Source: Methylophilaceae bacterium
GTDB taxonomy: Bacteria; Pseudomonadota; Gammaproteobacteria; Burkholderiales; Methylophilaceae
Direction of reading: 5' to 3'
Length of the DNA: 56,205 bases
NCBI GenBank assembly: GCA_028355955.1
Contig: JAOMTQ010000006.1
Span: 1-56,205 of the forward strand
The notes under the pieces were generated by a model, which was given only the letters and a program-made list of their open reading frames with translations, ran no database searches and was not told where the DNA came from. Position numbers and translations under genes: made by a program. Shown here piece after piece: positions 52,843-54,683 of the stretch. Every line of letters begins with the position of its first letter. Position 1 is the first letter of the stretch.

Positions 52843-53706
52843 TTAATCTAATCTTTCTTTACTTATAGCTTCATTTAATTTACCCATAGCAATTTTTTCA
52901 ATTTGCCTAATACGCTCTGCTGAGACATTAAATTTTTTTGCAAGATGATTTAGCGTTTCTGCTTTATCTTCACCTAACCATCTGGCTTTGATAATTGATT
53001 CGCTTCTTTCATCTAAGGTTGCCATAGCATTCTTAAGTAATTCTAAATTATTTGATTCAGTCTGGCTTTCATGAAGTGCATCATGTGGATTTAATGACTT
53101 ATCTTCAAGGTAAGAAATAGGTCTAAATGAATCCTCATCAGAATCATCATCTGAATAGTCAATTGTTAATTCTTGGCCATTCATTCTATATTCCATTTCT
53201 TTTACATCAGACTCTTTTACATTCAAATCATTAGCAATTGATTGAATTTCATCAATACTTAATGGTTTTAAAGTTTTTTTCATACTTCTTAAGTTAAAGA
53301 AAAGCTTTCTTTGAGCTTTTGTTGTTGCATTTTTGACCAAACGCCAGTTTTTAACAACGTATTCTTGTATCTCTGCTTTTATCCAGAAAATTGCATAAGA
53401 TACCAAACGAACCCCTTTATCTACATCAAATTTCTTGACAGCCTTCATTAAGCCTATGTTACCCTCTTGAACTAGATCAGATACTGGAAGGCCATATCCA
53501 CTGTAGGACCTAGCAATTTTGATAACTAATTTTAAATGGGATAAAATTAGTTTTTTTGCTGCTTCAAGATCATTGTTAAGTTTTAATTTTTTACCAAGCT
53601 CAAACTCTTCTTCAGCAGTAAGTGAAGGAAAAGCTCTAATTTCTCTTTGATATAAATCAAAACTATCAGTTACGTTATATTTTGATAATGAAAATGTATT
53701 TGTCAT
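52843..53706 (-). CDS. rpoH: Heat-shock sigma factor RpoH (sigma-32)
   Basis: Directs RNA polymerase to heat-shock promoters. Region 2 shows LVQEGNIGLMKAVKKFD and LVSYAIFWIKAEIQEYVVKNW (split: LVSYAIFWIK and AEIQEYVVKNW). The RpoH box QRKLFFNLR is at about residue 132. Region 4 carries LAKKFNVSAERIRQIEK. The length of 287 residues is normal. A CIRCE-type operator ends 9 bp upstream of the ATG, so HrcA repression of the sigma factor is predicted. It sits downstream of ftsX in the ftsYEX-rpoH order. Confidence 0.97.
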   Translation of the reverse strand: MTNTFSLSKYNVTDSFDLYQREIRAFPSLTAEEEFELGKKLKLNNDLEAAKKLILSHLKLVIKIARSYSGYGLPVSDLVQEGNIGLMKAVKKFDVDKGVRLVSYAIFWIKAEIQEYVVKNWRLVKNATTKAQRKLFFNLRSMKKTLKPLSIDEIQSIANDLNVKESDVKEMEYRMNGQELTIDYSDDDSDEDSFRPISYLEDKSLNPHDALHESQTESNNLELLKNAMATLDERSESIIKARWLGEDKAETLNHLAKKFNVSAERIRQIEKIAMGKLNEAISKERLD

Positions 53707-53715
53707 AATTGTATT

Positions 53716-53742
53716 TTAGCACTCTTTATACATGAGTGCCAG
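53716..53742. promoter_or_regulatory. CIRCE element (HrcA operator) upstream of rpoH
   Basis: The plus strand reads TTAGCACTC (53716-53724), a 9-bp spacer, then GAGTGCCAG (53734-53742). The CIRCE consensus is TTAGCACTC-N9-GAGTGCTAA, so 16 of 18 arm positions match, with the exact spacer length. The rpoH ATG is at 53706-53704, so the element lies 9 bp before it, in the promoter or 5' leader. It is bounded by ftsX on the other side. Confidence 0.85.
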
Positions 53743-53774
53743 TTTTCTATATAAAGTTCAATTAAAACAATATT

Positions 53775-54683
53775 TTATTTATAAATTTTTAGCCTTTGAA
53801 TCGAATTTCTTGCTGAGATGTATGATGAAATTAAGCCAATAAGCATCGCTAAAACTATAATGTATATATAATATCTTTTTGGCAAATCATTAAAAATGAT
53901 ATCTGTTCCAAATATTGAAACTAACTTAATTAATGCAACATTTAAACTAAAGACAGATAGCTTTAATATAGAAATGGTAATAATTCCTCCACCTAGCCCA
54001 TATAATATTCCTGTATATATAAAAGGCCTTTGAATAAAAGCATTTGTTGCACCAATTAATTTACTGACTTCAATTTCGTCTTTGTAGGTAAGCGTTTGGA
54101 GCCGAATAGTATTTCCAATTACAACAAGGAGGACAATAATTAGAAGCGCTGCTATAAAAAATACACTTAATTTACCGAGTGACAGCCCAATTCTAAGTTT
54201 TTTAATCCAATTTCCGTCTACTGTAACGCTTTCAATCCCGTCAACTCCATCAAGATTATCTATGAGCTTTTGTATTTTTATTTCATCAAGTGTGTTTAAT
54301 GATATAAAAAAGGCATCAGGAAGAGGGTTAGCAGAAACGCTTGAACTTACAGCTACATCTAGCTTAGTTTGAAGTTTTTCCCAGGCAATCAGTTTAGGTT
54401 CAAAATGAATTTTTTTTACTAAACTATTTTTTTTAAGACTTAATTCAATAAAGTCTATTTGATCTTTTGATACGGTCTTATCAAGAAAAATACTAATTTC
54501 AGCTTCATGTTCTATATTTTGTGAAATTTGACCCGCATTTTCAATAAGCAACAAGCCTGCACTAGGCAAGCAAAGGGTAATACCGATGACAATAGTCATC
54601 ATAAAGGATGCACCAATATTATTAATGAATCTTGAAAATCCATTTAGAAATGCTTGATAATGATTATGAAGGAAGTTGAACAT
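53775..54683 (-). CDS. ftsX: Cell division protein FtsX
   Basis: Membrane subunit of the FtsEX complex that activates septal peptidoglycan hydrolases. The product has 302 residues with four TM helices (about residues 22-45, 172-195, 222-245 and 272-295). A periplasmic loop between TM1 and TM2 contains SVSANPLPDAFFISL, and the conserved TYKDEIEVSKLIGATNAFI (split: TYKDEIEVSK and LIGATNAFIQRPF) lies between TM2 and TM3. It overlaps ftsE by 20 bp. Confidence 0.95.
   Translation of the reverse strand: MFNFLHNHYQAFLNGFSRFINNIGASFMMTIVIGITLCLPSAGLLLIENAGQISQNIEHEAEISIFLDKTVSKDQIDFIELSLKKNSLVKKIHFEPKLIAWEKLQTKLDVAVSSSVSANPLPDAFFISLNTLDEIKIQKLIDNLDGVDGIESVTVDGNWIKKLRIGLSLGKLSVFFIAALLIIVLLVVIGNTIRLQTLTYKDEIEVSKLIGATNAFIQRPFIYTGILYGLGGGIITISILKLSVFSLNVALIKLVSIFGTDIIFNDLPKRYYIYIIVLAMLIGLISSYISARNSIQRLKIYK

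Follow-up and report, generated by a model that had tools for sequence, protein, structure and literature searches.

Why does an inverted repeat resembling CIRCE, the operator of the repressor HrcA, lie directly in front of rpoH, the gene for the heat-shock sigma factor sigma-32, in a member of the Methylophilaceae? The question arises from a window of 56,205 nucleotides (the whole stretch of DNA that was analysed), in which positions 53716-53742 read TTAGCACTC-TTTATACAT-GAGTGCCAG on the plus strand. Compared with the CIRCE consensus used here, the inverted repeat TTAGCACTC-N9-GAGTGCTAA, this is a match at 16 of 18 positions with a spacer of 9 bp; both mismatches are in the outer arm and the core arm bases are intact. 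The repeat lies 9 bp from the rpoH ATG (53706, minus strand). The match, the exact spacing and the distance to the start codon given in the original prediction were all reproduced, and when sequences with three or fewer mismatches were counted as sites the repeat was the single match in the window, against 0.03 expected per window from shuffles. The features of the locus, all on the minus strand, are as follows.

52843 to 53706, minus strand: rpoH, encoding sigma-32 of 287 amino acids; its product passes the curated equivalog cut-off for RpoH (TIGR02392, 367.9 bits against 323.1) and scores 390.8 bits with NF005143.
53713 to 53721, minus strand: extended -10-like sequence TGCTAAAAT, made up of the CIRCE right arm plus AAT, with the hexamer TAAAAT at 53713-53718; a putative promoter element.
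53716 to 53742, minus strand: predicted CIRCE operator (CTGGCACTC-N9-GAGTGCTAA in the sense of rpoH) with two mismatches.
53737 to 53742, minus strand: CTGGCA, within the CIRCE left arm, a possible -35 for TAAAAT with an 18-bp spacer.
53754 to 53759, minus strand: GAACTT, resembling a sigma-E -35, 11 bp before CIRCE; its -10 partner, TCATG, 18 bp on, is poor here.
53765 to 53770, minus strand: TTGTTT, -35-like, from motif comparison in the genus the candidate -35 of an upstream promoter with a 17-bp spacer.
53775 to 54683, minus strand: ftsX-like gene upstream of rpoH (TIGR00439, 218.8 bits, below the cut-off of 255).

The 1.09-Mb assembly to which the window belongs contains two CIRCE matches, the rpoH site and another that lies 66 bp from the groES ATG, both of them 5' of a heat-shock gene, and the consensus read backwards gave no match at three or fewer mismatches anywhere in it. 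This backward pattern does find matches somewhere in 37 of 101 genomes, so that chance matches with three mismatches occur genome-wide in larger genomes; it is therefore the position beside rpoH in many genomes, and not the bare count, that constitutes the evidence.

We compared the window's genome with 100 relatives from its genus, family and order. rpoH was found in 93 of these 101 genomes, on which the conservation counts are based, and hrcA in 94. A CIRCE with at most three mismatches is present upstream of rpoH in 86 of the 93; the backward pattern reached this threshold in none of them, its best instance having four mismatches in one genome and the rest being worse. Site and hrcA occur together in 85 genomes, hrcA alone in three, neither in four and the site alone in one, the last being the window's own incomplete assembly. 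The hrcA-bearing genomes that lack a good site at rpoH have five mismatches (G029) or four (G069 and G085), and four genomes that have no hrcA and are complete to 98% or more (G079, G093, G099 and G100) have five to eight. In G029 (locus L066), rpoH has an internal stop and the CIRCE right arm is broken, with hrcA present in the genome. In G066 (68% complete) and G089 (96%), hrcA is present, and neither a CIRCE match in the whole genome nor rpoH was found. Loss of the repeat amid conserved flanking sequence in close relatives had been named as grounds for abandoning the prediction, and the comparison of 25 genus members goes the other way: averaged over pairs, identity reaches 100% for the right arm and 91% for the left, compared with 44% in the loop, 82% in the next three bases, 48% in the six after those, and 73% and 63% in the upstream 15-base blocks. 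Exactly two CIRCE matches occur in 65 of the 101 genomes, and in the 55 of these 65 for which both upstream regions were read, the two matches correspond to groES and rpoH. Both the conservation of the site and its joint occurrence with hrcA give good support to control of rpoH by HrcA.

To this extent the proposed repression of rpoH by HrcA is supported; the origin proposed for it, in the streamlining of a small genome, is not supported, as the combination of CIRCE and rpoH spans the order and many other beta- and gammaproteobacteria. We looked at a set of named beta- and gammaproteobacterial loci, the best 80 of 590 candidate rpoH loci from a genome collection, and 41 of these best 80 have CIRCE at rpoH. 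Those with the site include Nitrosomonas, Polynucleobacter, Pandoraea, Trinickia, Janthinobacterium and Hydrogenophaga, and the gammaproteobacteria Haliea, Alcanivorax, Dyella and Pseudoalteromonas luteoviolacea; within the same best 80 of 590, the site was not found at enterobacterial, Vibrio or Pseudomonas rpoH loci. Of the 80 genomes, 43 yielded an hrcA match (one of them, in the genome of L244, being weak at 1.2e-11), and here too the site tracks it: both are present in 40, neither in 36, and among these best 80 of 590 only four are discordant. Three of the four have hrcA alone, namely L263 (its contig breaks off short of the upstream region, and it was counted as lacking the site), L278 (Xanthomonas pisi) and L294; L291 has the site alone. 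In both comparisons the counts come from related genomes that are not independent, and the relatives' set and the named set may share species. CIRCE at rpoH is a widespread arrangement, ordinary in kind, and not a quirk of a small genome.

Upstream of rpoH in X. pisi (L278) the CIRCE has five mismatches, and its two arms are altered in step (CAGTC and GACTG); the GAT that comes next preserves TGCTAAGAT. CAGTC is also present in Luteimonas (L264). In this group HrcA may recognize an altered operator.

What distinguishes the rpoH site from that at groES is its relation to promoter-like sequence. The three bases after the rpoH CIRCE, AAT in the window, hardly vary. CIRCE positions 25-30 form a hexamer that reads TAAAAT in 56 of 86 rpoH sites and whose TA...T core is kept in 83 of 86, compared with 22 of 75 groES sites; the final T occurs in 40 of the 41 named loci with the site (best 80 of 590 candidates). 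Together with the CIRCE TG at positions 22-23, the hexamer reads as the extended -10 TGCTAAAAT, a putative promoter element that takes its first six bases from the CIRCE right arm. A longer operator was considered as the cause of AAT and rejected: groES sites do without AAT (T at position 30 in 33%), and the left flank at rpoH has no mirror of it. In G093 (99% complete, no hrcA), the rpoH upstream reads GGGAACTTTACGCCC-ATAGCACACTCATAGAAACGGTGATAA-AATTG, a five-mismatch relic in which the operator is broken and GGAACTT and TGATAAAAT are retained around it, in this single case.

Among rpoH sites with up to four mismatches, position 3 of the left arm has G in place of A in 21 of 88, and the mirror change, T to C, occurs in 0 of 88; in the named set (best 80 of 590 candidates) the figures are 7 and 0 of 41. 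The A-to-G change requires 15 steps on the RpoH tree, at least nine of them forced by well-supported branches. It turns TTAGCA, 18 bp before TAAAAT, into TTGGCA, nearer to a -35 of the TTGACA type. The same asymmetry could suggest that the rpoH leader folds into a hairpin at the inverted repeat, which would serve as a thermosensor or stability element instead of or besides a DNA operator, since A to G keeps a G-U pair and the absent mirror change would break one. However, the change also brings the arm nearer to a -35, and at groES the asymmetry is missing (3 left and 6 right of 76). Pairing is also lost at inner positions (G-G, C-C, T-T and C-A), with C-A at position 1 in 37 of 88; the predicted transcription starts lie inside or after CIRCE, so that those transcripts would not contain the whole hairpin; and the presence of the repeat follows that of hrcA. 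With inner changes breaking pairs and predicted starts inside or after the repeat, we rejected an RNA hairpin as the main explanation and consider an RNA role very unlikely.

A motif resembling the -35 of the envelope-stress sigma factor, sigma-E, accompanies the operator at many rpoH loci. The sigma-E consensus has a GGAACTT -35, a TC-type -10 and a spacing of 16-17 bp. Exact GAACTT occurs within 36 bp upstream of the site at 47 of 86 rpoH loci (0.66 expected) and at 0 of 75 groES loci (0.62 expected); allowing one mismatch raises these figures to 76 of 86 and 36 of 75, so that the loose form has a high background. When GAACTT lies 7 bp upstream of CIRCE the loop starts with TC in 22 of 22 sites, giving a sigma-E-like promoter with a 16-bp spacer; TC is found at 4 of 5 sites at a distance of 8 bp, 11 of 16 at 9 bp and 6 of 31 at 10-11 bp. 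This pairing was not repeated in the named set (best 80 of 590 candidates), which held no 7-bp cases and had TC in 6 of 23. In the window's genome the sigma-E-like promoter is weak, with its 18-bp spacer and TCATG as -10. RpoE was not found in the window's assembly, which is 78.6% complete; the relatives G014, G017, G019 and G023 have it. In the 64 genomes with a completeness of 98% or more, a GAACTT-like motif is missing from all four that have no RpoE and from 12 of the 60 that have it.

HrcA most likely covers the rpoH promoters directly, judging from these overlapping motifs. A fuller version of this idea is that at rpoH, unlike at groES, CIRCE would be operator and promoter in one: its right arm, TGCTAA, would supply the extended -10 TGCTAAAAT, its left arm the -35, and the sequence between them the sigma-E -10, so that HrcA would compete with two sigma factors at a single 27-bp site. 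Selection on the promoter would then explain a nearly fixed right arm beside a changing left one, and in the window's subclade transcription would start on the A of the rpoH ATG and yield a leaderless message. We put this version forward tentatively, as plausible but somewhat short of probable. The extended -10 in the right arm and the sigma-E-like -35 upstream are possibly new and would be useful details of the promoter.

The genus has a further promoter-like element of its own, TTGNNT-17-TAAAAT, with the -35 at 23-28 bp before CIRCE and the -10 ending on the first base of CIRCE; TTG is present in 23 of 25 genus members and TAAAAT in 15 of 25. In the window the -10 position belonging to TTGTTT (53742-53747) has decayed, with GAAAAC instead of TAAAAT.

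A genome without hrcA had also been named as grounds for abandoning the prediction, and hrcA was not found in the window's assembly (78.6% complete, 19 contigs). This, with the two outer-arm mismatches, would fit a lineage that has lost hrcA and keeps a decaying or neutral relic. Yet of the 31 genus members searched, 29 have hrcA, the exceptions being the window's assembly and G028 (81% complete). In the 25 other genus members in which both rpoH and hrcA were found, the two share a contig in 15, at a distance of 18-27 kb, and are on separate contigs in 10. The 14-kb stretch of G019 that carries hrcA has a 39-base match and no other counterpart in the window's assembly, and the first 4.0 kb of the G019 stretch on the rpoH side aligns at 88.7% right up to the window's final bases. 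From the rpoH start, about 2.5 kb of contig remain in the direction in which hrcA lies in G019. Because the hrcA block of G019 is absent as a whole and the alignment on the rpoH side runs to the window's end, hrcA would lie past the contig end in the window's species, and its absence from an assembly of this completeness is uninformative. Moreover, the core of the arms is unchanged and the site survives at rpoH as well as at groES, whereas the four near-complete genomes without hrcA keep no site with three or fewer mismatches at either gene. We therefore regard a relic as very unlikely. A terminator of the ftsYEX operon that resembles CIRCE by chance is suggested by the position of the inverted repeat directly after ftsX, but is extremely improbable, as the sequence itself and not pairing alone is conserved to the CIRCE consensus, the right arm is followed on the rpoH strand by AAT and no T-run, and presence tracks hrcA.

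With HrcA as the likely regulator of rpoH, the site at groES bears on how the circuit is wired. Of 97 groES upstreams found, 81 were examined and 75 have CIRCE; the six misses are second groES copies in G046 and G098 and the four near-complete genomes without hrcA. In the window's genome a sigma-32-like promoter, CTTGAA-N15-CCCTAT, ends 2 bp before the groES CIRCE, and a score of at least 10 of 12 for such a promoter was reached in 62 of 75 upstreams compared with 0 of 75 when shuffled. Upstream of rpoH the signal was not above shuffles, and sigma-32 autoregulation of rpoH was rejected. The proposal that the two heat-shock circuits are wired in plain series needs correction: groESL has a CIRCE to itself together with a sigma-32-like promoter, and this points to a feed-forward loop. 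With these elements at groES and no sigma-32 signal at rpoH, HrcA appears to repress groESL both directly and via rpoH.

The site is very probably an HrcA operator that represses rpoH, with bound HrcA covering the rpoH promoters, in a coherent feed-forward loop with GroE feedback. HrcA on CIRCE would cover the extended -10 and, in many relatives, also a sigma-E-type promoter with its GAACTT -35 just upstream and its -10 inside CIRCE. Under heat, or when misfolded protein builds up, HrcA would lose its activity and rpoH would open, perhaps by the GroE titration known from other bacteria. The sigma-32 produced would then help to transcribe groESL, which HrcA would repress too via its own CIRCE, resulting in the coherent loop and its feedback. 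The alternative route to inactivation would be direct thermosensing by HrcA, as reported for Campylobacter (PMC8533110).

If correct, this would place HrcA above sigma-32 in a large bacterial group and not in one streamlined genome, with a layout of one repressor site overlapping housekeeping and envelope-stress sigma promoters and a second site at groESL. It would explain how chaperonin load is coupled to the entire sigma-32 regulon in these beta- and gammaproteobacteria, and groups without hrcA would need to replace that input. The rpoH promoters of E. coli include a sigma-E promoter, a likeness to the sigma-E-type element seen here upstream of rpoH; as a control genome, E. coli differs in not being among those with an HrcA match. 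Sites at rpoH in betaproteobacteria may well be listed already in the 2003 work of Permina and Gelfand. That study, as cited in PMC545781, concerned the regulons of HrcA and of sigma-32 in beta-, gamma- and epsilonproteobacteria, the same regulators and bacterial groups as here. In the portions of the literature covered, CIRCE at rpoH was found for Geobacter sulfurreducens only, where it is predicted directly upstream of rpoH with another before groESL, as here (PMC545781, Table 8); there CIRCE also precedes hrcA-grpE-dnaKJ, a difference from the 65 of 101 genomes with exactly two matches. In Agrobacterium tumefaciens both regulators act on groE, as here, and their roles are called differential and independent (Nakahigashi, 1999; PMC11764788), whereas in the present genomes HrcA appears to sit above rpoH.

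Some minor observations concern the window and its genus. Shine-Dalgarno-like motifs precede just 2 of 38 ATG-started window ORFs of at least 150 amino acids, from a crude ORF list, compared with 1.6 in shuffled upstreams, which weakens a leaderless rpoH as a special trait; Shine-Dalgarno sequences may play little part in the window's genome. The 16S 3' end, when searched for, matched at one place inside the window, with one mismatch. A third CIRCE-like site with two to three mismatches (TTATCACTCATGA-TTAAG-GTGGTAA) recurs in G001, G006, G008 and G016 of the same genus.
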